This document shows positions 445 to 17,452 of a DNA stretch of 24,652 bases, one piece after another. Where the stretch lies: IMG/VR virus record IMGVR_UViG_3300017991_000382, positions 1 to 24,652 of that record. One strand, 5' to 3'. This DNA is from a virus. Both the position numbers and the translations under genes were made by a program. Below the pieces are notes generated by a model that had not been told where the DNA came from, did no database searches, and was given only the letters and a program-made list of their open reading frames with translations. Position 1 is the stretch's first letter; the number at the start of each line of letters is the position of its first letter.

Positions 445-3400
445 TTATGGTGTCCGTCCCGCCATGCGTTTGTTGATCTTCTCAGCGACCTTGAGCCATC
501 GCTCGATCCCGGCGTAGACCTTCTTCCGTTCCGCGTCGGTGATGTTCTCGGCGCGAAGCCGCTTCCAGTACGGCGACAGCTTCCGCTGGATAAATCGCAG
601 TTGCTTCAGTTGGGACCGCTCGCGTCCGCTGGCCTTACCCGAGGCGTCTTTCTCGCTCAGGTTCTCCAGTTGCTCGTAGAACGCTTCGATCTGCTTACTG
701 GGCCGATGGGGCTCCCGCATGAACAGCGTGCCGATCACCGGCCAGTCTGAAGGCGTCTCCGGTCCGTTGATCCCCAGTTCAACCGTGCGGGCGGCGCGGC
801 CGTAGAGCCCGCCCGTGTAGCTGTTGACGACGTATTCGGTCTTGGCGGGCGAGACGTCGAGCGTCTTACCGACCTTCCGCATGAGCTGCGTGGTCCAGGG
901 CTTGTACTGGTCTTCCGGTAGCTTCCGGGCCATCGATTGCGTGACGATGGGGTTGCCCGCCCAGTCCTTGTTGGTCATAACGTCGATCACGGGACCGACC
1001 AGAGCCGGCCAGTCGGCGGGGTTGGCGTCTCTCGCGGCCTCGGTGAAGATGCGTTTGACCTCCTCGGGGTCGTCGTTGTACTTGGCATCGAGGGCCGCGA
1101 CCGGGATCGACTGGAACCAGTGACCCAGTTCGAAGGGGATCGGGATACGGACAATCGTGTGAGTGCCCGGAACGCGGAAGTGGAGATATCGCGCCTTCTC
1201 ACGCGGATCGAGTCGCTTGTACCATTCCTCGTCTTTGTTGCGCCACCAGAGCAGTATCGCCGGGACCGTCAGGGCGGCCAGGGCTGTCAGCGTCGTGCGG
1301 ATCGGCCGTTCGCGGAACGTGCGGAGGATCTTGTCCGGCCCCTGAATGCCCGCATTGAAGAACGGGATCAGTTGGTTCAGTATCTTGGCGATGCGCCCGT
1401 GGCGTGTGAAGTTCGTCGTCACGTCCTGGGCCTGGTTCAGAGCGTAGATCGATGCGTCGAGCGATCCGGCCCCGAATCGGGCCTCTCCGTCCTTCAGGGC
1501 CGCGTCGAACTCCGCAATGCGGACCCCGGCCTCGGTGACGCCGAACAACTCGCGCATGGCATCGATGGGGTGTAGGGCCGTGCGGATTACGAAGGGTTCG
1601 ACCACTTCGGCCCGTAGGTTCTGCGTGGCCTTGCGGTCGTGGAGGATCTGGGCCGACATCTTGCCGCCCATCGCCTTGAACCGTTGGGCCGCTTCGGTGC
1701 GGGCGACGTCCTTGACCACTCCCGCCGTCGCCGAGAGTGGCCCGGCCTTGGCGTGCTTGGCGAGAACGGTGAAGGTCATGGCATCGCGGACGAAGTTGCG
1801 CACCAGGCCGAACGAGGCGTTCAGGCCCGTGGCGCCCAGTCGCAGCGCTCGCGTGGCCTTGCCGAAGGTGATCGACAGGAACCAGGGCAGACTATACTGA
1901 TCCAGGCCCTCCAGGACGCGGTACACGTCCGGGTCCACCTCGTAGAACTGGCGCTTGCCGTCCACGACCAGCGTGACGATGTTGTCCTTGCCGTAGTATT
2001 GCGAGGCGTTGGAGTAGACGGTCAGGATTTCGTCCCACTCCTCCATCATGCCGGAACTGATAACGTCGGCATCCAGGCCCAGCCGCTTGTGGGCGATCTT
2101 GATGATATCCCTCTTGAGTTGCTCGGCGCTGAACTGCATCGCCTTGGTCGGGGCCGGAACCTTCCAGATGACGCTTCCCATGCCCTTGCGCGTCGCCAGT
2201 TTCGCCAGCGATCGCGCGACCATCGACTTGTGGGCCGTCGAGAAGATGCGTTCGGCCTGCTGGATCATCGTCTCGAACGGGTCCATGATCTCTCGGCCTG
2301 ATCCCTTGATGGCCTTGACCGCCTTGCCGACCTTGGCGATCCCCTTGCCCGTCCCGCTGGACTTCTGGACCTCGCCCTCGGCAAAGGCCCGCATGAACGG
2401 AACGTAGACCGGGTTGAGTTTCTTGATCTTCTTGAGCGCTTCGGTCTCGATCGCGCCGGATTCGTGCAGGTAGTCGAGCAGGCGGTGATTCCATTCGGTG
2501 ATCTCGGTGGCGGTCTGTTCCCACTGGTCGCTCTTGTACTTGTCGTATACGTACTGGACGTCGCCCTTCATCATGCCCGGGTTGATCCCCCGCTTCCAGA
2601 GCCAGAGGGCGCGCTTGGCGACGATCCATCGCGTGAACGTCTTGATGTCCTTACGCACGGGTTCGAGGATTTCGCGGAGCCCCTTGCCGTTCCGGTTGCC
2701 CGCCAGGTCGGTCGTGTACTCCATGACGAAGTGCCGGGCCTTGGCCGCCGGCTTGTCGGCGAACGCGACGGACAGAGCGACGGGATCGTCGGACGGCTTG
2801 AGGCTCTTGACGCCCGCCTGTTTCAGTCGCACGCGCAACGGGGCCAGCTCGTCGCGGAACATCGTATCGAGCCAGAGCATCCGATGGGTGATCCGCTCCC
2901 AGATCGTCCCCTTGATCGGCTTGCGGTTGATCTGCGATTCGACGCGGGCCTCAGCGCCCTGGAACCGCCAGGCCGAGATCATCTTCTTGGTCCGGGCCAG
3001 CTTCTTGGCGACGTCGGGGTTCTCCTCGAGGTAGGTCTCGGTGAACCACTCGTAGAGGTTCGGGGCCTTCTGTTGGGCCTCCTCGCCGGTCAGATACTCG
3101 CGCGTGAACTCGGCCCACCCTTCGGACTTGTAACCGCCTGGCGGCTTCCTGTCGGCATAGAGGGCCTTGCCCATCGCCATAAGTTCATCGGCAATGGCCT
3201 TCGAACCCGGCTTCTTCGACCAACGGTCGTTGGTGTGCCAGTCGAGGTAGTGCCCGATCTCGTGCATGGCCGTGGTCAGGCTGCGCACGTCCTTCAGGCG
3301 AATGCCGACCGCGTGAGCATCGTACCAACCGGCATAGGTCCGCATCTTGTGAGTGGCCTTGCCGCGCATGGTGATGTTGAAGGCCCGCTTGGCGTAGTCG

Positions 3401-6400
3401 ATGATCTCGCGGGCGGTCGTAACCTTGCCCTTGGGCTCCATCGAGACGCCGATCCGTGCGGCGCTGTCGGTGCCGGGGAAACCGGCCTTGCCGCCCGTGG
3501 CCTTGGGGGCCTTCTTCGGCTCGGCTTTCCGAACACCAAGCAACATCTGGTCAAACTCGATCTGCCCTGTCTTCGGAACGCCCTTGATGGGCATGACGAC
3601 ATAGCGACCCAGGACGCTTCTGCCCTTCTTGCCGATCATCAGGACGGGGGCCAGTTCCCGGCTGCTATCAAGGAAGACCTCCACCTTCTCGGCCCCCAGC
3701 TTGTGCAGAGCCTCCAGGCCATCGGCCAGGAGTTGCGGGTTCACGCTACCGACATTGCCCTCCGGTTCACGGATGACTACCCCGGAGATGTCGTCTTTCT
3801 TCTTGTCGAAGACAGCCGCTTTCTCCGTCGCCCGGATGTTCGCAGCGACGCGCCCCACGTCGTCAATCGTGAAGTGATGCGTTGCGTTCTCGACGTCGGG
3901 GACGATGTCCGTCCATTTCGGGAATCTGCCCTCACCCTCTGCGTACTGGACGGCTCCCTTCCTTCCTGGGTCAGTCCAACGGTACAGCCCCGGCTTGATA
4001 CCGTGCGGGACGGGCGGCTTGTCAACAACGAGCAGACGGCGTCCGTCGGTGACGACGAGTTGACCTTTCGGTTCGACGTGAAACCCGACGATCGCGTACC
4101 GGGCCGACTCCTTCGGTGAAGACGGCTTGATGATCTTGAGCAACTCGGCGGCCGTCTTCGGCTTCTTGGCCTTTGGGGTCTTATCTGCCTGGACAATCTG
4201 CACGCCATAGCGCTCGCGTAATTGCTTGGCGGCCATCCTGCGAACCTGCAATGGGAACGCCTTCGCTGACGCCTGCACCATAAGCAGGAACTCGTCACTG
4301 GCGGCCTCGACTTTATCATCGGTCCATTTGAGGCTTCCGTGGAGAAGGGCTTTCTCCTTGTCGGTCAGTTCATGGTCGAGCCGTTTGCTCAGCTCGGTCT
4401 CGGCCTTCTCTCGACTCGTGCCGAAGGGCAAATCGAACGGCTTGGTCTTCAACGGCCAGATGACCGGACTTGCGTCCTGCCAGAAGCTCAACCCCTTCTT
4501 CTTGCGTTCGGCCTCTGCTGTGTCGCGGCGCTTGCTCTCAGCCAGATCCTGGCGGCCCTGTTTCTTGGCCTCGTTGACGATGGCCTGTAGTTCCTCCTCG
4601 ACCTCAGCTAAGCTCCTGTTCTGGCCGATCCCCTGGCTGACCGCATTCTTGGTGCGCCGAAGAAACGGCGCGCGGTCCTGGAGCCCCTTGATGTCGCCGA
4701 TGAGGTCGTCGTATTCCTTTTGGAGCCATTCCTGTTTGAGTCGCCATACCTTCCTGGCAATGTGTTCGTCCAGGCCTTTGGTGTAGAATCCGCTCAAAGG
4801 GCTGTTCGTGACGCTGAGGGCTTCGGTGTTCTTGATTAGAACCGCTTGGTCCTTCGTTGCGCCGGCGTCCATTGCCATCTTCTGCACGAGTTGAGCCAGC
4901 CGGTCCCAGACTTTGATTTTGTCGGCCTTCTTATCCAGGAGATTGTAGAGCGCCCCCAGGCGCTGCGCTTCGCTGTTGGGATTCTCGTAGGCGTCTTCCA
5001 GTTGGGCCTTATTGCGCCGCTTCTGGATCGACTGGTATTTCTTACGCCAGCTCTCTGCGTTCGCCTTGGCGTCAACATATTGGCGAGATCGCTTCTGGTA
5101 GTTGACGCTGCCGGTCTTTGACCGCTTCATGCCGGTGCGTGCCTTCTGAGCCTCCGCTTCCGACTCCTTGAACTTTTGCAGGGCCTCGTCTTCCTGCTTC
5201 GTAAGGTCATCGGTTTCGCCTCGGGTGGTCGTGCGTTCGTAGGCGGGCAAGTCGGGTCCAGGTGCGGCCTCTTGCGTGCCACCGAGTTCAGCATAATCGG
5301 CAACCAGCCGCTCCCGTGTCCGTGGCTGGATGTCCTGCTTCGTCAACCACTGGTAGAACTTGTCCATGACGCCTTGCTGGTTGGCTTCATCCAAAACGCG
5401 GTAGGTGTCAGCGGCGCGCAACTGCTCAGGCGTATCAGCCGAGACTTTCAAGATGTTCTGGAATTGCTGTTGTCCCTCGCCCGTCTTCGCTGGCTTCTTC
5501 TTGGCCTGCTCGGCGGCGGGCGGCGCCAGCCCCGCCTTGTCGAGGACTTCTACCCCCGCCCATTGGGCAAATGCCTTGCGAGCCTCTTCGCCGTAGATGT
5601 TCTCGTACTCACCGAGAAGACCGGCGATCTGGTCAGTCGTCCGGGCGATCTCACTACGCAGCTGGTCAGGCATTCGCTCGCGCTGCTTCGCTGTCAGCTT
5701 CCGGCCGGTCTCGGGATTGACGCCCGTCTTCTCGATGTCCTCCAGGAGGCTCTTGGCATGGGCAATGCTGCTGTCGTAGCCTTGGAGTTCGTTCTTCCAT
5801 TCCTCGTGGCTGTAACGGACCTGCTCAATGTCCTTGGGATCAGGGTAGTGTTGCCCTGGTGCTCCCTCGCGGGTCATCGCTTCGCTGGGGGTGGGGAAGC
5901 TCTCTTTGAAATCAGGCTTCCCTACTTGGACTTCTCCCTCCTCTACTTGGACATCGTCGGCCTTTGGTTGGACTTCTTGCGGCGGTTCCGCCTTCTCCGT
6001 CGTCTCCTGAGCCACAGGAGGGGCAGGAGCTTCAGGCTTCGCGGCCTCAGCGAGCGCCGCTTGGAGGTTCTGGGCCTCGACGGTTTGGACTCCGTATTCA
6101 TCGCGCATGCCCTCCGCACCGCGCAAAGGTTGGGTCTCGAGTTGCGTCTTGATCTGGAGGCCAGCGCCGCCAGGTCCGATCTCGGGCGGCTTGGGCGCGG
6201 CGACGTCGGTCTTGGGTCCGGTCTCCGGGGGTGTCGTCTCAGCCTTCTGCGTAGCCGTCTCTACTGCCGTCTGCCCCACCGATCCGGCCAAGCCGAGCAA
6301 ACCACCGGCCGTCAGACCACCGAGGCCCGCCTGTCCTACGCGCGAGACGTCCTTACCCAGTTCGATTCGGTCGCCGTGCATGGTCGCAGCGCCGATGCTC

Positions 6401-7464
6401 ACCGTCTCCTGAAGGGCCTCTTCGAGCCCTTCGTTGACCGCCTTGCCGACCTGGCCGAGGCTGGCCTTGCCGACTTCCCGGCCGAGCTTGCCCATGGCGC
6501 GGTCTCTGGCTGCCTGTTTGATGGCCCGCAGCGACTCGCGGCTTATCCCCTTGCCGATCTTCAGGGCCTCATCGGCCTGCATGCGCTCGATGAAGCCGTT
6601 GATCGTACCGACAATCAGACGCTCCGTCTGGGCCAGGTCTTCGGACGCCCCGGCGTTGATGGCTTCCTGGTAGGCTGCTTCACCTTCAGCCATGGCGCCC
6701 ACGGCCCAGGCACCGAGCCCGCCCGTCGTCGCCCCGGCCGCTGTAGCTGCTGCCATCAGGGGCAAGGTCTCGAATGTCGTGTTGGCGATGTAGCCCCAGA
6801 CGCCCTCCTTGCGCGGACGCAAAGATTCCATCTGGGCCTCGTCGTAGATCAGCTTGGCGAGGTCTTGGGCCGATCCAGCCTTCTCGGACAGGGCCGGAAG
6901 GTCCGTCGCCTGAGCTTCACGTGGGTAGATCATGCGGGTAATCGGATGTCTGGCAATCTTCTTACCGATCGCGCCCAGCGTGCCCGGTCCAGAGGCAACG
7001 GTGCGCAGGCCGCCCCGCGTCAGGGCGTTATCGACTTCGGCCCGCCAGGTCGGCCCCTGGGTCTGGGTCGCGGCGGCGGGTCGTGTAACGCCGGGGATCG
7101 GCTGCGCTTCGGCCAGTGCCCGGTCGAAAAGGTCTCTCGGGACGCGGCCTGTCTGAGGCCCTGAGACCGGCTGTGAGGCCCAAACGTCTTGGGGGCCGTA
7201 GATGTCCACCCCAGGACTTTCTAGGCGTCTCGTGGGGAATCGAGGGGCTTCCTGAGGCTCTGGGGCTACTCCTGAACCGAGGAAGCTCTCGGCAATGCCC
7301 GGCCACTGCGCTACGGGCGGGCCGGCGGGGGGCGTAGAAACAACGTCAAAGCCGTCTGGAATGGCTGGGGTGGAGATAATGTCAAACCCTTCCGGAACAG
7401 TCGGCGGCGCTGTGGCGACAACCTCGAAACCCTCTGGTATCCTCGCTACTGCACTGGAACCCAT
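445..7464 (-). CDS. Giant multidomain (polyvalent) phage protein, probable internal or ejected virion protein
   Basis: At 2339 residues this is by far the largest gene. The order seen is: three PEGF-type repeats (9-45); glycine/alanine-rich hydrophobic stretches at about 230-258 and 378-397; a Pro/Glu-rich linker (about 400-520); long charged helices (about 690-1100); a sliding-clamp-like block (about 1120-1296); a zinc-peptidase motif HEIGH at 1401-1405 with a downstream GWAEF at 1449-1453; helical segments; and a C-terminal region resembling large polyvalent protein-associated domain 38 (about 1860-2210), with a hydrophobic helix near 2055-2073. Such giants in short-tailed phages are often packaged and ejected with the DNA, as T7 gp16 and the N4 virion RNA polymerase are; that role here is inference from size, hydrophobic helices and position after two helical proteins. 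The ATG lies within the end of the previous gene (19-base overlap) behind GGGGTGG. No frameshift was noticed. Confidence 0.93.
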   Translation of the reverse strand: MGSSAVARIPEGFEVVATAPPTVPEGFDIISTPAIPDGFDVVSTPPAGPPVAQWPGIAESFLGSGVAPEPQEAPRFPTRRLESPGVDIYGPQDVWASQPVSGPQTGRVPRDLFDRALAEAQPIPGVTRPAAATQTQGPTWRAEVDNALTRGGLRTVASGPGTLGAIGKKIARHPITRMIYPREAQATDLPALSEKAGSAQDLAKLIYDEAQMESLRPRKEGVWGYIANTTFETLPLMAAATAAGATTGGLGAWAVGAMAEGEAAYQEAINAGASEDLAQTERLIVGTINGFIERMQADEALKIGKGISRESLRAIKQAARDRAMGKLGREVGKASLGQVGKAVNEGLEEALQETVSIGAATMHGDRIELGKDVSRVGQAGLGGLTAGGLLGLAGSVGQTAVETATQKAETTPPETGPKTDVAAPKPPEIGPGGAGLQIKTQLETQPLRGAEGMRDEYGVQTVEAQNLQAALAEAAKPEAPAPPVAQETTEKAEPPQEVQPKADDVQVEEGEVQVGKPDFKESFPTPSEAMTREGAPGQHYPDPKDIEQVRYSHEEWKNELQGYDSSIAHAKSLLEDIEKTGVNPETGRKLTAKQRERMPDQLRSEIARTTDQIAGLLGEYENIYGEEARKAFAQWAGVEVLDKAGLAPPAAEQAKKKPAKTGEGQQQFQNILKVSADTPEQLRAADTYRVLDEANQQGVMDKFYQWLTKQDIQPRTRERLVADYAELGGTQEAAPGPDLPAYERTTTRGETDDLTKQEDEALQKFKESEAEAQKARTGMKRSKTGSVNYQKRSRQYVDAKANAESWRKKYQSIQKRRNKAQLEDAYENPNSEAQRLGALYNLLDKKADKIKVWDRLAQLVQKMAMDAGATKDQAVLIKNTEALSVTNSPLSGFYTKGLDEHIARKVWRLKQEWLQKEYDDLIGDIKGLQDRAPFLRRTKNAVSQGIGQNRSLAEVEEELQAIVNEAKKQGRQDLAESKRRDTAEAERKKKGLSFWQDASPVIWPLKTKPFDLPFGTSREKAETELSKRLDHELTDKEKALLHGSLKWTDDKVEAASDEFLLMVQASAKAFPLQVRRMAAKQLRERYGVQIVQADKTPKAKKPKTAAELLKIIKPSSPKESARYAIVGFHVEPKGQLVVTDGRRLLVVDKPPVPHGIKPGLYRWTDPGRKGAVQYAEGEGRFPKWTDIVPDVENATHHFTIDDVGRVAANIRATEKAAVFDKKKDDISGVVIREPEGNVGSVNPQLLADGLEALHKLGAEKVEVFLDSSRELAPVLMIGKKGRSVLGRYVVMPIKGVPKTGQIEFDQMLLGVRKAEPKKAPKATGGKAGFPGTDSAARIGVSMEPKGKVTTAREIIDYAKRAFNITMRGKATHKMRTYAGWYDAHAVGIRLKDVRSLTTAMHEIGHYLDWHTNDRWSKKPGSKAIADELMAMGKALYADRKPPGGYKSEGWAEFTREYLTGEEAQQKAPNLYEWFTETYLEENPDVAKKLARTKKMISAWRFQGAEARVESQINRKPIKGTIWERITHRMLWLDTMFRDELAPLRVRLKQAGVKSLKPSDDPVALSVAFADKPAAKARHFVMEYTTDLAGNRNGKGLREILEPVRKDIKTFTRWIVAKRALWLWKRGINPGMMKGDVQYVYDKYKSDQWEQTATEITEWNHRLLDYLHESGAIETEALKKIKKLNPVYVPFMRAFAEGEVQKSSGTGKGIAKVGKAVKAIKGSGREIMDPFETMIQQAERIFSTAHKSMVARSLAKLATRKGMGSVIWKVPAPTKAMQFSAEQLKRDIIKIAHKRLGLDADVISSGMMEEWDEILTVYSNASQYYGKDNIVTLVVDGKRQFYEVDPDVYRVLEGLDQYSLPWFLSITFGKATRALRLGATGLNASFGLVRNFVRDAMTFTVLAKHAKAGPLSATAGVVKDVARTEAAQRFKAMGGKMSAQILHDRKATQNLRAEVVEPFVIRTALHPIDAMRELFGVTEAGVRIAEFDAALKDGEARFGAGSLDASIYALNQAQDVTTNFTRHGRIAKILNQLIPFFNAGIQGPDKILRTFRERPIRTTLTALAALTVPAILLWWRNKDEEWYKRLDPREKARYLHFRVPGTHTIVRIPIPFELGHWFQSIPVAALDAKYNDDPEEVKRIFTEAARDANPADWPALVGPVIDVMTNKDWAGNPIVTQSMARKLPEDQYKPWTTQLMRKVGKTLDVSPAKTEYVVNSYTGGLYGRAARTVELGINGPETPSDWPVIGTLFMREPHRPSKQIEAFYEQLENLSEKDASGKASGRERSQLKQLRFIQRKLSPYWKRLRAENITDAERKKVYAGIERWLKVAEKINKRMAGRTP
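835..1887 (-). other. Domain in giant protein: LPD38-like C-terminal region
   Basis: Residues about 1860-2210 contain GLVRNFVRDAMTF, a stretch rich in N, F and helical residues (LIPFFNAGIQGPDKI), a hydrophobic helix ending in ILLWW, then RIPIPFELGHWFQSIP. This resembles the large polyvalent protein-associated domain 38 found at the C-terminal side of giant phage proteins. Its biochemical role is not known. The family call is from pattern memory. Confidence 0.6.
2995..3342 (-). other. Domain in giant protein: zincin-type metallopeptidase motif
   Basis: Residues 1401-1405 are HEIGH, preceded by a short helix (SLTTAM) and followed by YLDWH, as expected for the active-site helix of a zinc metallopeptidase (two His ligands, catalytic Glu). 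About 46 residues on, GWAEFTREYLTG (from 1449) offers Glu1452 as a likely third ligand. Zincin domains with an HExxH plus later Glu are known in phage polyvalent proteins. Possible roles are self-processing of the giant or cleavage of a host protein after entry; neither is shown by the sequence. Confidence 0.75.
3577..4107 (-). other. Domain in giant protein: DNA polymerase III beta sliding clamp-like (C-terminal half)
   Basis: Residues about 1120-1296 carry, in order, three hallmarks of bacterial DnaN. VTDGRRL at 1138-1144 matches the ATDGHRLA motif. GRFPKWTDIVPD from 1179 matches the FPDYRRVLP link between clamp domains 2 and 3. NPQLLADGLEAL, then a strand-rich stretch, then YVVMPI at 1288-1293 matches the end of domain 3, where DnaN terminates in YVVMPMRL. 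The part between the first two motifs is roughly half the length found in E. coli DnaN, so domain 2 is reduced, and no domain 1 is evident. A functional ring-forming clamp is therefore not assured. The likeness was judged by eye against remembered DnaN sequence. Confidence 0.72.
7330..7440 (-). repeat. Three tandem PEGF repeats at the N terminus of the giant protein
   Basis: Residues 9-18 (IPEGFEVVAT), 23-32 (VPEGFDIIST) and 35-44 (IPDGFDVVST) are three copies of one 10-residue motif separated by short Pro/Ala spacers. Similar PEGF-like short motifs occur near the N termini of other phage giant proteins (from memory, not checked). They could be docking peptides for another virion protein; that is inference. 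Confidence 0.8.
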
Positions 7465-8240
7465 TTGCCACCCCGCATCACTTTCTTTTCGCCGGTTTTT
7501 TTGTTCTCGATAACAGTTCCCTCGGCCAGTGGTTGGGACCGTTCCGGCACCAGGGGCGCTGTGGCGAGGCTTGGGCGTTTCGGTTCTGAGGTCTTCGTCG
7601 GGTAAGGCAGTTGGCCCGGTTCGGGCTCATAGTGCGGCGGTCCGGTCTGCTCGGCCGGTGCTTGGTCTCGCTCGGCGATCCTCTTGGCGATTTTCGTGCG
7701 CATACCGTAGAGGCCCTTGATATCGTCGTCCTCGAACAGTCCGACCCCATGCCTGAGCAGGTCGCTGAGCAGGTCGTCCGTCTGCTGCAAGGCAATCAGA
7801 TCCCGGTCGCCTGCGACCTCCAGCCGCTTGGTATCGGCCTCGATCCTCTGCTTGTTGAGGGGATGCATCTCGGCATCGCGCGTCTCGGCGGCGGCTTCGC
7901 GCTGCTGCCCCGGCGTCGGCAGGGCCGTCTCGCCCCGTCGCGCCATCACCTGCTGCTGGAGGGGCGACAGTTGCGGCGCGGCCCCGGGTCCGACCAGACG
8001 GTCGACGAACCCCAGAATCCCGCCCCGCTGCTGCGGCGCCATCGACTCGACCAGGAACCGTTCGGCGTTCTCCGGGCCTTTCCCATCGGGGTCTTGCAGG
8101 ATCAGTCCCATCGCGTGCTGATCGATCTCGCGTTGGCGGCGAACCTCCTTGATCTCGCTGATCCGGTTGGCGAGTGCCTGGAATCGGTCAGAGGTTTCCC
8201 CGAGTGCCCTGCTGCCGTCCCCTACTGTCGTAATGCCCAT
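7446..8240 (-). CDS. Putative internal virion protein, hydrophilic helical
   Basis: This 264-residue protein is hydrophilic and mainly helical, with charged heptad-like stretches at about 20-60 and 110-190 and a proline-rich linker at about 195-235. It ends in ENKKTGEKKVMRGGKWVPV, a short tail of a kind found at the end of phage proteins encoded just before giant polyvalent genes. There is no signal peptide or membrane helix. It starts 20 bases after the stop of the previous gene behind AAAGG, and its last 19 bases overlap the start of the giant gene, so the two are probably translationally coupled. By position it may correspond to one of the small ejected proteins of short-tailed phages, a T7 gp15 type role. 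That is inference; no enzyme motif is visible. Confidence 0.88.
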   Translation of the reverse strand: MGITTVGDGSRALGETSDRFQALANRISEIKEVRRQREIDQHAMGLILQDPDGKGPENAERFLVESMAPQQRGGILGFVDRLVGPGAAPQLSPLQQQVMARRGETALPTPGQQREAAAETRDAEMHPLNKQRIEADTKRLEVAGDRDLIALQQTDDLLSDLLRHGVGLFEDDDIKGLYGMRTKIAKRIAERDQAPAEQTGPPHYEPEPGQLPYPTKTSEPKRPSLATAPLVPERSQPLAEGTVIENKKTGEKKVMRGGKWVPVQ

Positions 8241-8260
8241 CGTCTCTGCCTTTCTTGTGA

Positions 8261-9052
8261 CTACATGCCCGGCATCTTGCCCATAGCGTTCGATGCGCCA
8301 GATATCCCGCCCTGGATGGCATTCCTCAGGGTCTCGTTTACAGCAACGTATTTCGCAAAATCGCTCGGTTGCTGCGTCGCCACCATCGGAGCGCCGAACG
8401 TCATCCCGGCCAGTTGCGGTTGGGTCTCGTATCGGAACGTGATCGGGTCCATCTTGTTGAGGTACTCGGCCTCGAGCTTCGCCCCTTCGATCCCTCTGAG
8501 GATGTCCCCGACGCGCGTCCCGGCCTGGACCTGGTTCAGGAGCGTCCCCTGGCGCTGGCTGTCGAGGCTCTGGAGTTGGGTAATCGCCTGCTGCTTCTCG
8601 GCCCGAGCCTGCTGGAGGAACGGCACGGCGGCGGCCATCATGCGCTCCTGCGTCCCGGTCACGCTTCTGCCCAGGACGTCGCGCCCGGCCGAGGAGGATA
8701 CCGAGTTGACCCCGCCCATGATGTTACCCCGCTGGAGCCGGTTGGCCTCCAGTTGACCGTAGTCGGCGATCTGATCAACGACGGCGCGGTATTCCGGTAG
8801 CTGGGTCGGGTCCGTAGACTGCGTAGCGAACTGCGTGGCCGTGTCGAGTGCGGTGGTGTAGGCCTGGGAAGGCCCCTCCTGCATGTAGCCCTGCACGAGC
8901 TTCTGGGCCAGTTCGGTCAACGGGTCGATGCCCGCCACTTGGCGCTCGGGAAAGTCGGGCGGCGCTTCGGTCGCTCGCTCGGTCAGGAGCTTGAGCGCCG
9001 GCCGGTACTCTTTCGGTACTTTCGTCTCGATCTTGGTGTCGAAGAATCCCAT
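8261..9052 (-). CDS. Putative internal virion or ejection protein
   Basis: This 263-residue protein opens with MGFFDTKIETKVPKEYRPAL and is then mostly helical, rich in Gln, Ala and Thr. An amphipathic helical core lies at about 85-205, a Gly/Ser patch (MGGVNSVSSSAGRDVLG) at about 112-128, and the end is Gly/Met-rich. The lack of any catalytic motif, the helical composition and the position before another helical protein and the giant suggest an internal or ejected virion protein, comparable in place to T7 gp14. The start is supported by AAGGTGG about eight bases upstream. A tail accessory protein is the main alternative. Confidence 0.86.
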   Translation of the reverse strand: MGFFDTKIETKVPKEYRPALKLLTERATEAPPDFPERQVAGIDPLTELAQKLVQGYMQEGPSQAYTTALDTATQFATQSTDPTQLPEYRAVVDQIADYGQLEANRLQRGNIMGGVNSVSSSAGRDVLGRSVTGTQERMMAAAVPFLQQARAEKQQAITQLQSLDSQRQGTLLNQVQAGTRVGDILRGIEGAKLEAEYLNKMDPITFRYETQPQLAGMTFGAPMVATQQPSDFAKYVAVNETLRNAIQGGISGASNAMGKMPGM

Positions 9053-9065
9053 AGTTTTCCACCTT

Positions 9066-9500
9066 CTACACAGACACCCAATTCGTGCCGTCGTAGGCCC
9101 GGTACGTCACGGCCGACCCGGCGGCCAGTGTGACCGAGGTATTGGCCCCACTGCCCAGGTCGTCATCGACGTTCGGGAATATCTGGAGCGTTTCGGCCCC
9201 GTTGTTGATAATCGTTTGCCAGGCCCCCGCCTGCGCCTTGCGCATCGTCACGACGTCGTTGGCGTTGGCGCAGGTCGCTATCTCGTTGACGTTGGCGCTC
9301 AGAACTTGCTGGCCCTGGCTCTGGGTCGTTGACGCCGTGATTCCCGCCTTGGTCGTTCTCTCCCCCGCCGTCCGCACGATGTCGTAGAACCGCTGGAACT
9401 CCTCGAAGAACAGACGCAGAACGCGCTTGAGGCTCGCCATGTCCTTGGCGGCCTCCAGTTCGGTGCGCGGGATGCGAAAGCTCTTGGGCAGTTCACTCAT
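9066..9500 (-). CDS. Small virion structural protein with C-terminal beta domain
   Basis: The 144-residue product has an N-terminal helical part (about 1-45, ELEAAKDMASLKRVLRLFFEEF) and a beta-rich C-terminal part (about 55-144). The latter has the layout VVTMRKAQAG, then TLQIFPNV, then SVTLAAGSAVTYRA, ending DGTNWVSV. That layout is common in small phage surface or fibre proteins. The ATG overlaps the stop of the preceding gene by one base (TGATG), a sign of coupled translation with the large 612-residue protein. A partner of the tail hub or a head decoration is plausible. There is no signal peptide here, in contrast to the genes further upstream in the operon. Confidence 0.88.
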   Translation of the reverse strand: MSELPKSFRIPRTELEAAKDMASLKRVLRLFFEEFQRFYDIVRTAGERTTKAGITASTTQSQGQQVLSANVNEIATCANANDVVTMRKAQAGAWQTIINNGAETLQIFPNVDDDLGSGANTSVTLAAGSAVTYRAYDGTNWVSV

Positions 9501-11338
9501 CAGCGTAACCCGTCCAACTCGAAATCAACGATATAGGCCCCGATGAACTCGAAGTAGCCAGTCGATTCGATCTTGAATTCGAAGTGCTTGGCCCGCGCGT
9601 CGCAATCCAGATGGACCTGGACGTAGTCGGCGCTGGCGTCGTCGCCAACCAGTGTTGCCGAGCCCAGATCGGTCCAGGCCTGCTCACCATCGCGCCGGAC
9701 GTAGACGTCGATAGAGACGTCCGTCTCCCGGTTGAAGACCAGATCGATCCCCTGGCTGATGCGTTTGAACATCGCCAGGTGCTTGCTCGGCTCGACGAGT
9801 CCGACGTCGAAGATCAGCGTCCGCGTCATGGAACTGCCCGCGTCGTTGCTGGCCTGGTCGAACTCGTAGGTGTAGCCGCTGTAGTTGCTGGCCAGGACGA
9901 GGTTGAATCCCAGGCTGTTGGCCGCGGCGTCCCAGACCAGCCAGGCGGCCCCCCACTCGTCGTAGGTGTCATAGGGCAGCGTGTCCCAGGTGTAGACCGT
10001 CTGGCGCGAGTAGATCCCGAACGCCGAGACGGGTATCTCATGGATGACGACGGCTTGCGTGTACGGGTCGATCTCCAGGACCGTGTCGTTCGTCTCGGAG
10101 TCGGCCGAGGGGACGGCAAAGAGCAGGCGGTCCAGTTCCTCGTAGTAGACGGCCTGGCTCAGATCGACGGCGTCCTGGTTCAGGCTCTTGAGCGTCTTGG
10201 CCGCGTGCGGACTGGTGATCGGCGTTGCCCCATTCAAGGCCCGGATCGTCAAGTCGTTCGCCAGCCAGAGCAGGTTGCCCTCCCGGTCGGTCACGAGCGT
10301 ATCGCTGGCGACGCACCCGGCTCGAATCTTCTCGATGGCGAAGTACCAGGGCGTGTCGGTCGTGGTCAGCCAGGCCCGCACCATGCGTTTCTCGGCCGCG
10401 ATGATGAAGTAGTCATCGATGTCCGCGAAGCCCATCACGAACCCGCAGGCGTCATCGATATCCTTGTACCCGGCGTCACCGGCCCCGTCGGTGTCGAACG
10501 TGTCGGCGTTGGCGTCACTGTACCGGACGCGCCGCGCGTGGACGGTGCCGTCTTCGGTGGTGTAGCCGAGCCAGAGGTAGCCTTCGGTACTGCCAACATG
10601 CTTGGCCTTGGTCAGGTAGACGCCCGTCGAGACCAGGACGCCCGACGCGCTGCCCAGGTCGGCGAAGCTGTTGCTCACGCTGGTGTGCGAGTCCCACTTC
10701 TGGACGAGGTCGTCGCCGTTGGTCGCATAGACGCAATCCTGATGCGTCACTATCGACCAGCGCGTCACGTTGGCCGGGGTGGTCACGGTGAACTTGACGG
10801 TCATCGTCGCCGCCGTGTTGTTCCAGAGCAGGATGTGGTAGGCCGTCGCCAGGAGCAGGTACTCGGTCGCGTTGGCCTCGTTGACGTAGCGATGGTACTT
10901 CAGGACCGGAGTGATCCCCACGAACACGTTCCCGTCGGCCGTGGCGTCGGAAACGGTCTCCGAGACGACGATGTCGGTGTTGGCCCCGTTCTTGGTTGCC
11001 GAGACGAGCGTATAGAGCGCGTCGTTGCCGGTCGAGCCGTTGATTCTGATCTGAGAGCTGTCGGCATTGGCGTTGATCGTGGTGGCGTGGTCGCCGCTGA
11101 TGGTGAACGTCTTGGACCCGGTATCGACCGCCGTCACCGCGTAGACGTACTTCGGCGGCGCGATCTGCACGCTGTCGCTGTCATACAGGGACGGCAGGCG
11201 TCCCCGGCACGCGCGGTACTCCCCGTACCGTTCGCGGACGTTCCGGGAGTCGCGCGAGATGAACGCCTGGGTCAGGAGCATCTTGTTCGTATGCTCACCG
11301 ACCCCGTACTTCGGAGATGTCAGAGCGAATCCGGGCAT
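9500..11338 (-). CDS. Large tail protein, probable tail hub / nozzle or DNA stabilisation protein
   Basis: The 612-residue protein is beta-rich throughout, with short WD- or kelch-like strands such as YLLLATAYHILLWNN, GYLWLGYTTEDG and LLWLANDLTIRALNG. It begins with a loop region (MPGFALTSPKYGVGEHTNKM) without a signal peptide. A C-terminal beta sandwich covers about 480-612 (YVRRDGEQAWTDLGSATL, then FEFKIESTGYFEF). Size, beta-propeller-like look and place after the connector gene fit the tail nozzle or packaged-DNA stabilisation proteins of short-tailed phages (T7 gp12, P22 gp10). It starts two bases after the stop of the previous gene, and its own Shine-Dalgarno is weak, so it may depend on translational coupling. 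The role is inferred, not proved by a family motif. Confidence 0.87.
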   Translation of the reverse strand: MPGFALTSPKYGVGEHTNKMLLTQAFISRDSRNVRERYGEYRACRGRLPSLYDSDSVQIAPPKYVYAVTAVDTGSKTFTISGDHATTINANADSSQIRINGSTGNDALYTLVSATKNGANTDIVVSETVSDATADGNVFVGITPVLKYHRYVNEANATEYLLLATAYHILLWNNTAATMTVKFTVTTPANVTRWSIVTHQDCVYATNGDDLVQKWDSHTSVSNSFADLGSASGVLVSTGVYLTKAKHVGSTEGYLWLGYTTEDGTVHARRVRYSDANADTFDTDGAGDAGYKDIDDACGFVMGFADIDDYFIIAAEKRMVRAWLTTTDTPWYFAIEKIRAGCVASDTLVTDREGNLLWLANDLTIRALNGATPITSPHAAKTLKSLNQDAVDLSQAVYYEELDRLLFAVPSADSETNDTVLEIDPYTQAVVIHEIPVSAFGIYSRQTVYTWDTLPYDTYDEWGAAWLVWDAAANSLGFNLVLASNYSGYTYEFDQASNDAGSSMTRTLIFDVGLVEPSKHLAMFKRISQGIDLVFNRETDVSIDVYVRRDGEQAWTDLGSATLVGDDASADYVQVHLDCDARAKHFEFKIESTGYFEFIGAYIVDFELDGLR

Positions 11339-11340
11339 GG

Positions 11341-12294
11341 TTACTTGACGTACCCCACGAGCTTCATCGTGATGGTAATGCTGTTAACGTTGGCAGCGAC
11401 CTGGACAACGCCGCTGCTGTCGGTGATGCAGGACAGGTAGCGCACCTTGTTGGCGTCCACTCGGCAGGCGGCCGTGCCGTTGGTGTTGCCGTCGGTCCCG
11501 TGGTACGTAGTCGTCGCGCTACCGTACCCCTTGGGCTTGACGACGAAGTACCCGGCCCCGCTGGCCTGGACTTCCAGGAACACAAAGGCCGAATTGCTGC
11601 CCACGTAGGACGAGAGGTCGAGGTCTTCCCAAGTGTTCGCGGCGGTCATCGTGGCATTGAGGACCGTAGAGCCGTCGGCCGTCAGGGTCGAGGCCGCCGC
11701 GACCTGGTCATCGACGTACTTCTTGTTGGCGATCATCGCGTCGGTGGTCGGCGCTCCGCTGGTCGCCAGGACCGAGGCGTCGGGGATCTGGAGGACGTCG
11801 CCCGTCGTCGCTTTGATGAGGTCAACCGTTCCCGTCCCGGCGTTGTCAACCGCCGTCAGGTAGGTATCGTTCGCCAGGACGCCGAGCAGTGCCGCCGAGG
11901 TCAGGTTCACCTTGCCAACACTGGTCAGTTGGATTTCGTTCTCGTCTTCGTCGGTGAAGTGCAGTTCGGCCTTGCTCGATACGTCCTTGGTGAACAGAAC
12001 CCCCTCGTTCTCCGGGACGCTTGAGACGGTGTTCGGTCCCTGGAATGTGACCCATCGATGCTTGCCGCAATCGGCCGCGTCGTAGGTGCTGGCCGCCGAG
12101 GCCGACCAGTAGTGATCGACGGTGATCCGCTCTTGGATCGCCGCCTTGATCTCCCGCATCCGGTCGTCGCCTTCGCGTGGATCGTCTGACGCGCCCGGCG
12201 TGTCCGTCCGGTAGGTATAGGTGAAGCCCGCTGCCATCGAGAAGATCGAAAAGCAGAGGGCCAGAAGGGCCAACAGGGTCGCTTTGTTCTTCAT
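11341..12294 (-). CDS. Tail-fibre-like protein with N-terminal signal peptide
   Basis: The 317-residue product has two parts that do not usually go together. Residues 1-22 (MKNKATLLALLALCFSIFS and on) form a signal peptide with a basic N-region, hydrophobic core and a possible AA-G cleavage site. From Met20 it continues as FTYTYRTDTPGASDDPREGDDRMREIK, which resembles the canonical start of many podovirus tail-fibre proteins (DDP.EGDDR..EIK...). A beta-rich stretch and C-terminal sandwich (about 210-317) follow. AAGGAGAG lies nine bases before Met1, while no Shine-Dalgarno precedes Met20, so the leader is part of the product. It begins four bases after the stop of the 91-residue gene. A membrane-anchored or exported fibre is implied. 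Confidence 0.88.
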   Translation of the reverse strand: MKNKATLLALLALCFSIFSMAAGFTYTYRTDTPGASDDPREGDDRMREIKAAIQERITVDHYWSASAASTYDAADCGKHRWVTFQGPNTVSSVPENEGVLFTKDVSSKAELHFTDEDENEIQLTSVGKVNLTSAALLGVLANDTYLTAVDNAGTGTVDLIKATTGDVLQIPDASVLATSGAPTTDAMIANKKYVDDQVAAASTLTADGSTVLNATMTAANTWEDLDLSSYVGSNSAFVFLEVQASGAGYFVVKPKGYGSATTTYHGTDGNTNGTAACRVDANKVRYLSCITDSSGVVQVAANVNSITITMKLVGYVK

Positions 12295-13180: not shown

Positions 13181-13783
13181 CTAAAACTCCCGATAGTAGA
13201 CCGTGACGTCACCGGCCTCGATGCCCGTCGAGCCGTCGGCGCTGGTTATCTCGACCATCGTCCAGTTGTATCCCTGCATGTCCGTCGCCAGTTCGGCAAC
13301 GGAGTTTCCCCCGGCCGTGGTCGTGTAGATCCCCGTGGTAGTGTAGTCGTTCGTCACCGTCAGGGTATCGGCCCAAAACTTGTTCGTCGCCGTGTTGGCG
13401 TCATGGGGGTACTTCGTGACCGCCTGGGTGCCGAGAATGCCCGTCCCGTTGCCCAGGATGCGGGCCGGTCCCCGTCCAGCGCTCCAGGCCAGCCAGCGCC
13501 AGGAGAACGTGTCGTTGGCCGCGTCACCGCCACAGACCGCGATGGCGATGTTCTGGACATCGCGCTCGTAGTTCAGGTTGGCTTTCAGTTCGATGGCCGC
13601 TGCCGGTTTGTTGGCCCAATCGCCCTTGGTGGTCAGGTCCAGCGCCGTGTCCTCGTCGGCCTCGGCCCGCAGGACGAGAAAGCCCTTCTGCGTCGTGCCG
13701 ACCGTGACGTACGCGCTGCACATGACGGCCAGTAGGAGCGCCAGAGCCACGCCCAACGCGGTGAGATTCCGTTTTCGATACAT
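13181..13783 (-). CDS. Phage structural protein with N-terminal signal peptide
   Basis: The 200-residue protein begins with MYRKRNLTALGVALALLLAV, a basic then strongly hydrophobic leader ending near CSAYV. The rest looks like a soluble beta-rich virion protein: GFLVLRAEADED, a Trp-rich strand FSWRWLAWSAGRGP, then GTQAVTKYPHD, TNKFWADTLTV and a final VTVYYREF. Proteins of this plan occur in phage structural operons, usually without a leader. The ATG is supported by AAGGAAGG about ten bases upstream; no Shine-Dalgarno precedes the inner Met21. Cys22 is not in a proper lipobox (AVMC), so a lipoprotein is unlikely. It might be a capsid or tail decoration protein that is exported or membrane-tethered; its function is unproved. 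Confidence 0.86.
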   Translation of the reverse strand: MYRKRNLTALGVALALLLAVMCSAYVTVGTTQKGFLVLRAEADEDTALDLTTKGDWANKPAAAIELKANLNYERDVQNIAIAVCGGDAANDTFSWRWLAWSAGRGPARILGNGTGILGTQAVTKYPHDANTATNKFWADTLTVTNDYTTTGIYTTTAGGNSVAELATDMQGYNWTMVEITSADGSTGIEAGDVTVYYREF

Positions 13784-13803: not shown

Positions 13804-14202
13804 TCAGTCCGTCAGGTTCGCCACGTAGCCCTGAGCCGTGACCATCTTGTCGGCCAGGGCGTTCACCTCGGCCTTGATCTGTGTCACCGTCGCGGAGGGG
13901 ATCGTGATCTCATAGCCCATATGACCCACCGTCCCGGCCTGATAGAGCCGGATCAACTGGCCTTGCCTGTTCGCGGCCCGGTGCGTGTACTTGTAGGCCC
14001 ATTCGACCTTCTCGACGCTGGTCAGGCCCGCCGTCAGGGCCGCTAGGTCAGCCGTCGCCAGTTCGCTGTCACTGAGATCCAGGTCAACCGCTGGGGCCGA
14101 GATGGAGACTGACTGCTGGATGGCTACCGGCCAGAGGCCAGAGGCGCTGCCTGCAACGACGAGCCCGAGCGTGATGAGTAGTACTAGTGTGATGCGTTTC
14201 AT
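13804..14202 (-). CDS. Small exported protein of unknown function
   Basis: The 132-residue product starts with a typical signal peptide, MKRITLVLLITLGLVVAGS, with possible cleavage after SAS. The mature part begins with an acidic stretch (VDLDLSDSELATADLAAL), then a mixed segment with WAYKYTHRAANRQGQLIRLY, and ends in a helix (about 105-132). The Shine-Dalgarno TAAGGAG contains the TAA stop of the upstream gene, so translation is probably coupled. The first residues resemble those of the neighbouring 421-residue protein (MKRFTL against MKRITL), and some bases around the two starts are shared. I do not recognise the mature domain. It may be a partner of the fibre-like proteins beside it. Confidence 0.84.
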   Translation of the reverse strand: MKRITLVLLITLGLVVAGSASGLWPVAIQQSVSISAPAVDLDLSDSELATADLAALTAGLTSVEKVEWAYKYTHRAANRQGQLIRLYQAGTVGHMGYEITIPSATVTQIKAEVNALADKMVTAQGYVANLTD

Positions 14203-14216
14203 GGTTCAGAGTCTCC

Positions 14217-15482
14217 TTACGGGTAAGTCTGTCCGTTGCCGTCGATCTCCACCCAGTCGGTGCCGTCCCAGCAGAGCGTCACCCACTCCAGTGCTGTGTC
14301 GAGCCTGATGACTTCCGGGTCCGATGTGACGTGGTTCGCTACCGTGATATCGATGTTGTTGCCTGCCGTCTTACACGAGAACTTAACAACCTGTCCCGTT
14401 GACGTGCCTGCTGCAAGAGTACCAGTGACCGCTGCTCCACTTGAATCAATGATGTGAATGCCATGATCGTCAAAGGTTACAAGGTCGGCTGTCACATTAT
14501 TCACATCGAGGACATGACCTGCAGCCAAGTCAACCATAGCGTCAAAACGGACATTGCCTGTGCCAGTTGCAAGAACACCATTCGTCTGGTCATGTGCCAA
14601 ACTCAGCCATTGGGTGTTGTCGGTATCAGGGTCTATAGCAGAATGAATATACATAGTCGGATTGGTTTGGTTAGTGTGGTCAAAATCCTTGATACGATCA
14701 CCATCCTCAGCAAAAATCAGGGTATTTACACCGTTTGACAGAGTTAATTGTAAAGCTCCGGAGTGGCCTGTGGCTGGCAGTAAGCGACCACACGTATTAC
14801 CGAGAGCCGTTCCGTCCGTTGAGATTAACAAGTTATCACAAGTCGCATAACTTATTAACTCAACGCCAGAGTCAAAGTATGTGAGCCCGTCAACTTCCAG
14901 CTTACCACTAATGAACAGGTCATCATTAGCAGCAAGACCGTGGCTTGTACTCCCTGCATCGCCCACGACGTTCGGAACGCCCAGCATGATGAGGTCGCCT
15001 GTTGTGCCCGGCTGGATAGTGATATCGCCACTTCCGGTACTCAGCAAAGAGCCTCCGCCGGCTAACGTGACATCTCCGCTGAATAGAGCGGCACCAGTTC
15101 GATAGATAATCGCTACTTCTGATTCTTGGTACTGCACTGCAAACGGAATGACAGACGAATCGTCGGTGTTTATCTGAACGGCATATGTCCCACCGTCCCA
15201 GTTGCTGCCATCGGCGTTCACATAGAGCAACCGAGTCGCCCCATTAGCGGCTGGAGTGCTTTGGATAACAACTACATCGCCGCTAGTGCTATTATCCTGA
15301 ATCGCCAGGGACGAGGCCGTGGGGACGGAGGCCAGTTGGGGAGAGATTTCCAGGGGACAGGCCGAGCCGTTCACAACGCCAGGTTGAGGGTGGAGCCGTC
15401 TCTGCATCTGGGCCGTGGTTGGAACCAGGAGCAGACCCAGGAGGATCGCCAGTGTTACCGTGATGAGTGTAAAGCGTTTCAT
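14217..15482 (-). CDS. Exported fibre-like repeat protein with an AT-rich insert
   Basis: The 421-residue protein begins with a signal peptide (MKRFTLITVTLAILLGLLLV, likely cut near TTA-Q). It continues with beta-rich fibre-like sequence (about 50-370; GDVTLAGGGSLLSTGSGDIT, DDLFISGKLEVDGLTYF) and a C-terminal beta domain ending WVTLCWDGTDWVEI. There is no enzyme motif. The middle, residues about 61-380, is encoded by DNA of roughly 35-50 percent G+C, while both ends are above 60 percent. The Shine-Dalgarno is modest (GGGAAC), and a strong hairpin lies just upstream. It is the second of two long beta-repeat proteins in a row, so it may form a surface fibre together with the 589-residue neighbour. 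Confidence 0.88.
   Translation of the reverse strand: MKRFTLITVTLAILLGLLLVPTTAQMQRRLHPQPGVVNGSACPLEISPQLASVPTASSLAIQDNSTSGDVVVIQSTPAANGATRLLYVNADGSNWDGGTYAVQINTDDSSVIPFAVQYQESEVAIIYRTGAALFSGDVTLAGGGSLLSTGSGDITIQPGTTGDLIMLGVPNVVGDAGSTSHGLAANDDLFISGKLEVDGLTYFDSGVELISYATCDNLLISTDGTALGNTCGRLLPATGHSGALQLTLSNGVNTLIFAEDGDRIKDFDHTNQTNPTMYIHSAIDPDTDNTQWLSLAHDQTNGVLATGTGNVRFDAMVDLAAGHVLDVNNVTADLVTFDDHGIHIIDSSGAAVTGTLAAGTSTGQVVKFSCKTAGNNIDITVANHVTSDPEVIRLDTALEWVTLCWDGTDWVEIDGNGQTYP
14340..15300. other. AT-rich island inside the 421-residue fibre-like gene
   Basis: Sixty-base lines in this stretch contain about 35-52 percent G+C (for example about 37 percent at 14641-14700 and 35 percent at 14821-14880). 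The lines before and after are near 60-67 percent. The reading frame runs straight through both borders. This suggests that the fibre's middle came from a different phage while the signal peptide and C-terminal domain were kept. Confidence 0.75.
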
Positions 15483-15573: not shown

Positions 15574-17343
15574 TTATTCCTCGACCCACGCCGAGGGGGT
15601 ATACACGGCGTACCATGTATCTGCTGCCGTACAGACGATCATCACGGCGCAGCCGTCGGCGTCCGTCTGGTTCTCGATGTAATGGCCCGCCGTATCCCCG
15701 TTGATGGTCCCGGTCCCTTCCGGGTCCACCTTCAGGTCATTGCCGGCGCCCGCATTGCCATCGACCAGCCAGTAGTAGACGCCCACCTCAGAGGCCGTAG
15801 CCTCCGGTAGCGTCACCGTGCAGGCCCCGCCCGTCTGCGTGTAGATAATCATCTGACCGCTCTGTGCGGCCGTCAGGGTGTCGGACGTCCCTGCCACGAC
15901 TTCGGTCGTCGCCTTGATGTTGTCGAGGGTCGCGCCGCCGCCCTTGAGCGTCCCCGTCACCGCCAGCGTCAAATCGCCCGCTGCGGTCAGGGTCATGTCG
16001 TCGGCGGCATCGATGGCGATGTCACCGTTCGAAGCCCCATCGGCGTTGATCTGGACCCCGCCGTCGGTCGTCTCGAAGACAATCGCGTTACCCGCCACGG
16101 TCCCGGTCGCATCCACCTTGAACTGGTTGGCTACCCCGTTGTCGGTCGTGGTGATGAAATCGTTGGTGGTGATCGACATGCCACTGGACGCTACGGCGAT
16201 CTCCAGATTGTCGTCGGTCGTCTCGTCGTACATAATCGAGGCGTCCGAGTCCGTCCCGAAGACCAGGGACATGCCATCGCTGAAGGTCATGTTGTCGCCG
16301 TCGTAGTCGGTGTCGATCGTCCCGGCCGTCTCGAAGTAATACGTGATATCGAACCCGGTCGTGGTATCGCCGATCTTCATCGCCTCGTCGGCCGTCGAAG
16401 CGTCGATCAGGAAGTCGGTCCCGTTGAACGTGAGGGTCACGTCTCCGGCCGTAGAGCCAAGCTGGAGAGACGAATCATCGTCCAGATGGACCTGACCGCC
16501 CACCACCTCCAGCGCCTCGTCGGAGGCGTCCCAGAGGGCATAATCGGCCGTGGTCGCGGCGAACAGCTTTAGGTCAACCCCGGTCGTATCGGCCCCGATC
16601 TGCACGATGGCCGTCTCGTCCGTCGCCGCCGGCGTGATGTCCAGCGTCTTGGCCGTGTACGAATCGATCACGAAGTCGTTGCCCGTCCCGATGATGAGGT
16701 TCGAGTCGTCGTCAAGCTGGATGTCCAGGTCGGTGAACAGTAGCTCGGCGTCCCCCTCGTTGAAGGTCATCAGCTTGTCGGCGGCGGCGTAGAAGATGAC
16801 ATCGGCGTTATGCGTCGCGTCCCCGATCCCGATAATGCCCGCGTCGGAATCAGGAATCATATCCAGCCGTCCCGCCGTGTCGCCATCGATGATCCACCCG
16901 GCATGGGTGAAGTCGATATCGTTACTCTGGCCGTAGGACGAGCCCGCCATTGCCGTCAGGTAGCTCGGCCAGGCGAACCGGGCGGTGGCGCTGGTCAGGT
17001 TGTCCACGCTCCGCGTGTACGTCCCATCGGTCGCGGTGATCTTGTACGAACCGGCTGCGGCCCAGAAGGTCAGCAGACCGGTCGTGTACTGCAAGGGTGT
17101 GTTGGTCGAGTCGTCCGTCACCGGCTGCGTGACCGCCAGTTTCCCGGCCCGGTCGTAGTAGCTGGTCAGCTCCGTGGTGGTGCCCGCCTGATAGATGTAC
17201 AGACTGACGGACGTCCCCATATTGACCGGATCGCCGAACTCGTCTACGAATTGGATTTGGAATTGGTTATACCGCTGTGCCAGGGCCGAAGGAGTCCCGA
17301 GACAGAGGCACGCGAGACATGCAAGCAGAATCAATCGTCGCAT
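15574..17343 (-). CDS. Long exported beta-repeat protein, fibre or surface-layer-like
   Basis: The 589-residue product starts with signal peptide MRRLILLACLACLCLGTPSA and an ALA-Q cleavage site. A short domain (about 25-110, QFQIQFVDEFGDPVNMGTSV) is followed by several degenerate beta repeats of about 40-80 residues (about 170-450), with recurring IG.D.T...D, DDDS.L..G and FLIDAS pieces. A C-terminal sandwich (about 485-585) ends TWYAVYTPSAW. It is very acidic and rich in Thr, Asp and Gly, as secreted or fibre proteins are. A longer frame extends 30 codons upstream, but AAAGGAG about nine bases before this ATG fixes the start. It follows the major capsid gene by 109 bases that hold a hairpin. 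It may be a tail or head fibre; a secreted, host-surface protein is the alternative suggested by the leader. Confidence 0.9.
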   Translation of the reverse strand: MRRLILLACLACLCLGTPSALAQRYNQFQIQFVDEFGDPVNMGTSVSLYIYQAGTTTELTSYYDRAGKLAVTQPVTDDSTNTPLQYTTGLLTFWAAAGSYKITATDGTYTRSVDNLTSATARFAWPSYLTAMAGSSYGQSNDIDFTHAGWIIDGDTAGRLDMIPDSDAGIIGIGDATHNADVIFYAAADKLMTFNEGDAELLFTDLDIQLDDDSNLIIGTGNDFVIDSYTAKTLDITPAATDETAIVQIGADTTGVDLKLFAATTADYALWDASDEALEVVGGQVHLDDDSSLQLGSTAGDVTLTFNGTDFLIDASTADEAMKIGDTTTGFDITYYFETAGTIDTDYDGDNMTFSDGMSLVFGTDSDASIMYDETTDDNLEIAVASSGMSITTNDFITTTDNGVANQFKVDATGTVAGNAIVFETTDGGVQINADGASNGDIAIDAADDMTLTAAGDLTLAVTGTLKGGGATLDNIKATTEVVAGTSDTLTAAQSGQMIIYTQTGGACTVTLPEATASEVGVYYWLVDGNAGAGNDLKVDPEGTGTINGDTAGHYIENQTDADGCAVMIVCTAADTWYAVYTPSAWVEE

Positions 17344-17383
17344 GGTTTGGTACTCCTTTCTCTCGTTTGCTCTTGTCAGTAGT

Positions 17384-17429
17384 CTGTCCCCGGCCCAAGC
17401 CCCGCTTCGAGACCCAGGCCAGGGGACAG
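17384..17429. repeat. REP-like GC hairpin after the capsid gene
   Basis: CTGTCCCC at 17384-17391 continues into GGCC, and these pair with GGCC plus GGGGACAG ending at 17429, with one bulged A and a 21-base loop. There is no U tract on either side. The GGGGACAGTCAC end (17422-17433) recalls short palindromes mobilised by REP-associated transposases in many bacteria, but only one copy is visible here. A transcript-end stabiliser for the capsid mRNA is equally possible. Confidence 0.5.
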
Positions 17430-17452
17430 TCACATTCTCGGAAACTCACTCA

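Follow-up and report, generated by a model that had tools for sequence, protein, structure and literature searches.

Gene context and domains of the giant protein

The window, a 24,652-nucleotide stretch of viral DNA, carries a long open reading frame on its minus strand. The gene is the last of a co-directional structural cluster that includes terminase, a P22-like portal, and a Phage_capsid_3 capsid protein, and its start overlaps the 3' end of the preceding gene (7446-8240). Its main features are:

445-7464, minus strand: giant LPD38-type polyvalent protein, 2339 aa (open reading frame; LPD38, E = 2.4e-35; phrog_9854, E = 4e-57)
742-1230, minus strand: LPD38 domain, aa 2079-2241 (Pfam PF18857, E = 2.4e-35, scoring 122.8 bits where 27 is the cut-off)
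3250-3264, minus strand: HEIGH, aa 1401-1405, a zincin-type metallopeptidase motif about 105 aa past the clamp module (motif scan)
3577-4161, minus strand: half-clamp module, aa 1102-1296, homologous to DnaN domains 2-3 (profile, hhalign, and model-to-DnaN alignment)

LPD38 has been reported only from phage-type polyvalent proteins, which have been proposed to be injected with the DNA, to be cut by their own peptidases, and, once in the cell, to jump-start replication or transcription (PMC5512222). From this class (PMC5512222) and the structural gene cluster, we infer that the giant protein would likewise be injected with the DNA, and by the same analogy it may be cut by its own predicted metallopeptidase. 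The first-pass annotation had placed a clamp-derived module within a phage protein of this general type; the LPD38 match supports that placement, in a class inferred to be injected (PMC5512222). The H, E, and H of the HEIGH motif are invariant among close relatives of the giant protein (alignment A5). The motif notwithstanding, the protein gave no profile match to any peptidase family.

As a separate observation, five proteins of the structural region (11341-12294, 13181-13783, 13804-14202, 14217-15482, and 15574-17433, all minus strand) have signal-peptide-like N-terminal stretches, for example MKNKATLLALLALCFSIFSMAAG and MRRLILLACLACLCLGTPSALAQ, which are unusual for virion genes. In the protein at 15574-17433 the stretch follows a later internal start. 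None of the five had a family match.

Homology to domains 2 and 3 of DnaN

A sliding-clamp-like domain had been annotated at 3577-4107, which is exactly residues 1120-1296 of the giant protein; the module itself starts slightly earlier, at about residue 1102. Profile comparison confirmed the domain. A profile of 30 non-redundant standalone phage half-clamps, taken from fetched loci, matched the segment with 27.7 bits and the whole giant protein with 20.1 bits, whereas the best of 2000 segment shuffles reached 7.4 bits and the next unrelated ORF among the loci tested reached 7.3 bits. Alignment of the same profile to the segment by hhalign gave E = 7e-10 with a probability of 96.5. Together with the fold match described below, these results establish that the segment is homologous to domains 2-3 of bacterial DnaN.

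Direct searches were weak because the segment is diverged. When the segment was used in a tblastn search of 50,697 phage records, only three records were returned (E 0.1-0.2). Two of the matches are proteins that carry the annotation 'DNA polymerase III sliding clamp', and the third lies in an unannotated record. The two PHROG families touched by the segment (E = 0.007-0.008) also match E. coli DnaN. Pfam alone was blank for the segment, which is uninformative since it equally misses a recognized phage half-clamp. There was no match to the segment in PDB sequences by phmmer or in plasmids by tblastn. Close relatives were found neither for the module in viral_contigs or genome_contigs, nor for the stretch upstream of it in viral_contigs, nor for the C-terminal part of the giant protein in genome_contigs.

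Alignment to E. coli DnaN placed the following motifs:

4084-4101, minus strand: RYAIVG, aa 1122-1127, aligned with RYYLNG (E. coli 152-157) in the wall of the pocket (alignments)
4033-4053, minus strand: VTDGRRL, aa 1138-1144, aligned with ATDGHRL (E. coli 171-177) in the wall of the pocket (alignments)
3898-3927, minus strand: RFPKWTDIVP, aa 1180-1189, aligned with RFPDYRRVLP (which contains P242 and V247) at the domain junction and in the wall of the pocket (alignments)
3706-3744, minus strand: VNPQLLADGLEAL, aa 1241-1253, aligned with FNVSYVLDVLNAL (which contains N320) in the domain-3 helix (alignments; model helix 144-156)
3583-3603, minus strand: YVVMPIK, aa 1288-1294, aligned with YVVMPMR of the DnaN C-terminus in the floor of the pocket (alignments)

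The three motifs named in the first-pass annotation (VTDGRRL, RFPKW..IVP, and YVVMPI) were all recovered in DnaN order within residues 1138-1294. The match of VNPQLLADGLEAL (aa 1241-1253) to FNVSYVLDVLNAL adds a fourth to these three.

Predicted structure of the module

An AlphaFold2 model of the module was computed from alignment A4, in which the segment is combined with 16 half-clamps and the domain-3 helix is in place; an earlier MAFFT alignment of few sequences (A1) had misplaced it. The model had a mean pLDDT of 66 and a pTM of 0.66. Searching the PDB with this model by Foldseek returned DnaN for all of the best 30 matches, the top one with E = 5e-6, and VIA-align superposed the model on DnaN with Z up to 12.2 over 173 residues. 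The clamp fold expected for domains 2-3 was thus recovered, though the other alignment rows are clamps and the model therefore depends in part on the sequence match. A model from the single sequence had low confidence (pLDDT 36), and DnaN ranked first among its matches with a non-significant E of 0.4.

Against E. coli DnaN, model residues 2-196 ran along residues 131-366 (Z about 12). The earlier description of a C-terminal half only, with a shortened middle domain, appears correct. No Pfam or PHROG clamp match indicating DnaN domain 1 was present in the 600 aa upstream of the module, although both libraries miss diverged clamps.

Retention of the peptide-binding pocket and loss of the dimer edge

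We compared the module with E. coli DnaN at 23 positions that line the peptide-binding pocket in E. coli clamp structures. Thirteen of the 23 are identical and several others conservative, compared with 27 of 157 (17%) elsewhere, an enrichment partly built in because pocket residues are also a hallmark by which any DnaN is recognized. Subsite I is retained, with T172, G174, L177, P242, V360, and M362 identical and L155I and V247I conservative. Subsite II is partly altered: R152, N320, and P363 remain, while Y154A, R246D, and Y323L differ. A published study chose P242, V247, M362, and P363 for mutation on account of their location in the peptide-binding region (PMC7261172). By alignment, the motifs that had drawn attention to this segment are the predicted walls of that pocket.

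The acidic dimer edge of domain 3 (298-304) and K198 fall in alignment gaps of the module. The same bias was seen in all 30 standalone half-clamps, which retain 11-20 of the 23 pocket residues and lack the dimer edge. With the acidic edge missing, the module should not form a ring. A pocket retained while the dimer edge is lost implies that the module should bind clamp-binding motifs without encircling DNA. As subsite II is altered (Y154A, R246D, and Y323L), ordinary clamp-binding peptides may bind weakly.

A true processivity clamp would require the modules to form a ring, perhaps as a PCNA-like trimer of two-domain subunits. Two domains per subunit and the presence of PCNA chains among the weaker fold matches fit this arrangement, but the gaps at 298-304 and K198, the shortened domain 2, and the embedding of the module in a 2339-aa chain make it highly improbable.

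Standalone phage half-clamps

Half-clamps also occur as standalone phage proteins. The half-clamp of Escherichia phage Sciku (QEG06877.1, 173 aa), one of the segment's tblastn matches annotated as a sliding clamp, retrieved 237 of the 50,697 phage records by tblastn, and a consensus sequence retrieved 274. Some adjoin a phage DNA polymerase gene, as in Acinetobacter phage 4316 and Edwardsiella phage PEi21, and others sit among head genes.

These two settings are compatible with a pocket whose partner is encoded by the phage and not by the host: either a replication protein made early or, at the assembly stage, another virion protein. We consider such a partner unlikely for the window module, as no strict clamp-binding pentapeptide was present in the 15 window proteins scanned, and the one loose and one hexapeptide match among them are at chance level. 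Replication genes were not seen in the window because it is a fragment. A clamp-binding-like hexapeptide, QMLLGV (aa 1306-1311; 3532-3549, minus strand), lies ten residues past the module; chance alone would give about 0.5 matches of this kind across the window proteins.

Two further observations concern the standalone proteins. The label 'RusA-like Holliday junction resolvase' is attached to phrog_3007 and repeated across many RefSeq phage records, yet this family matches phage half-clamps as well as E. coli DnaN (E = 6.5e-24; phages collection; L021, L024, L026, and L027). In Edwardsiella phage PEi21 (L027, 1989-2516) the half-clamp beside the DNA polymerase gene is split over two ORFs, which would reflect an error in the sequence or a gene that is broken.

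The variable cargo slot and probable recurrence of the fusion

The nearest relative of the giant protein that we found, in locus L002, shares its C-terminal part:

583-3516, minus strand: region common to L002, aa 1317-2294, 76% identity (blastp and tblastn)

This similarity resumes at residue 1317, 20 residues past the end of the clamp module. The two proteins are 36% identical over residues 143-507, and between these regions L002 has an unrelated, shorter stretch with no detectable clamp module. In other relatives, the N-terminal part contains a ddrB-ParB or a lysozyme-type domain. Judged from these alignments, the clamp module occupies what appears to be a variable cargo slot of the polyvalent protein. 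The replacement stretch in the L002 protein (5227-10515), between aa 482 and 787, contains VRLYRGE-like (IRLYRGE) and GGWYT motifs and by eye looks like an ADP-ribosyltransferase; it had no Pfam match.

Most LPD38 giant proteins are without a clamp module, those of the cultured Vibrio phage 1.211 and Thalassomonas phage BA3 included. None was detected in the giant proteins of 7 named phages or in those of the first 13 viral loci, and a screen of 77 further LPD38 loci (8599 ORFs) gave none except in L124/L125, with the proviso for both sets that very diverged copies could escape. L124 and L125 are a near-identical contig pair and thus a single candidate second case. The giant LPD38 protein of L124 (6272-12964) has a candidate clamp at residues 960-1160, before a HEIAH motif at 1291, with the motifs TDSHWIF, FPNWKDVV, VNTNYLNMM, and AVLMPVR at residues 1009-1158. 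The candidate scored 17.6 bits with a profile including the window module (shuffle maximum 9.8) and 10.7 bits with a profile without it (shuffle maximum 8.8). The motif series is absent elsewhere in 221 long ORFs and 0.08 occurrences are expected from shuffling, for a pattern that was defined after L124 had been seen. In the distant giant protein of L124, the same slot thus probably holds a more diverged clamp module. The reading [YF]AI.G is common to the two fused modules, whereas all 30 standalone half-clamps have tyrosine at position 154, which hints at a common origin of the fused pair.

A further pointer comes from structure comparison. The third-best viral fold match of the model was A0A6J7W9M3 (TM 0.62, 192 columns, rmsd 4.1), a 'Large polyvalent protein-associated domain-containing protein' of an uncultured Caudovirales phage. 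Its matched part is not named as a clamp and was compared here by structure; the match points independently to a clamp-polyvalent fusion. Taken with the L124 module, it suggests that the fusion probably recurs.

Absence of the module from the nearest relative and its strong divergence could indicate a decayed or purely structural insert devoid of clamp-like activity. Preferential retention of the pocket and the probable clamp-like module in the same slot of the L124 protein run counter to decay, and we regard it as very unlikely.

Proposed role of the module

We propose that the half-clamp, consisting of shortened DnaN domains 2-3, is cargo of the LPD38 polyvalent protein and is injected as a docking module, a proposal to which we give an even chance. 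The giant protein would be packaged, ejected with the DNA, and then perhaps cut by its own metallopeptidase. The module would act as a docking pocket for proteins with a clamp-binding motif, such as the replicative polymerase, and the docked replication proteins would be kept near the entering genome with the DNA not encircled. A more specific and more tentative version, somewhat short of even odds in our estimation, is that of a virion-borne clamp mimic, in which the injected ring-less pocket captures host replication proteins and brings them to the entering genome.

The retained pocket could also serve an inhibitory decoy, in which an injected or later-made module soaks up host clamp-binding proteins and halts host replication or repair. 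Phages do attack the clamp, and the fold matches include 7evp, the phage protein Gp168 bound to the beta clamp. However, the copies injected per virion would be few relative to host clamp-binding proteins, and the giant protein, as the product of a structural-cluster gene, is probably made late; we think a decoy role unlikely. Since an infecting virion would deliver an internal protein in small number, local recruitment fits better than titration, and local docking is more plausible than a bulk titrating decoy.

A role as clamp loader, also raised in the first-pass annotation, was dropped, as no loader-like or otherwise supporting domain was found.

Local docking of this kind would extend the cargo of injected phage proteins to a module of the replication machinery, and would suggest a route by which a phage could reach the host replisome immediately upon entry. 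It also touches a wider, unexplained theme: half-clamps are present in 274 of 50,697 phage records, those examined keep the pocket and lose the dimer edge, and many are labelled as RusA-like resolvases.

Comparison with known systems

Half-clamps and polyvalent proteins are each of known kinds; the fusion of both appears to be new. The literature searched yielded no paper on this fusion or on injected or truncated phage clamps, and the main text of the polyvalent survey does not mention a clamp-polyvalent fusion (PMC5512222).

With E. coli DnaN (Pfam PF02767/PF02768) the module shares the fold of domains 2-3, the motif order, and subsite I. It differs in being about 18% identical, with no domain 1 detected, a shortened domain 2, and no acidic dimer edge, and in lying within a giant protein. 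The standalone half-clamps (phrog_3007, e.g. Sciku QEG06877.1) have in common with it two shortened domains, a retained pocket, and a lost dimer edge. They are separate genes for 170-200 aa, whereas the window module is fused inside a 2339-aa ORF, has a longer domain-3 start, and carries A rather than Y at 154 and R rather than H at 175. Finally, the giant protein resembles the LPD38 polyvalent proteins of phages (Iyer et al. 2017, PMC5512222) in its LPD38 domain, zincin-type motif, large size, structural-cluster context, and variable cargo; the main text of that survey names no clamp or DnaN, whereas the window protein carries one.
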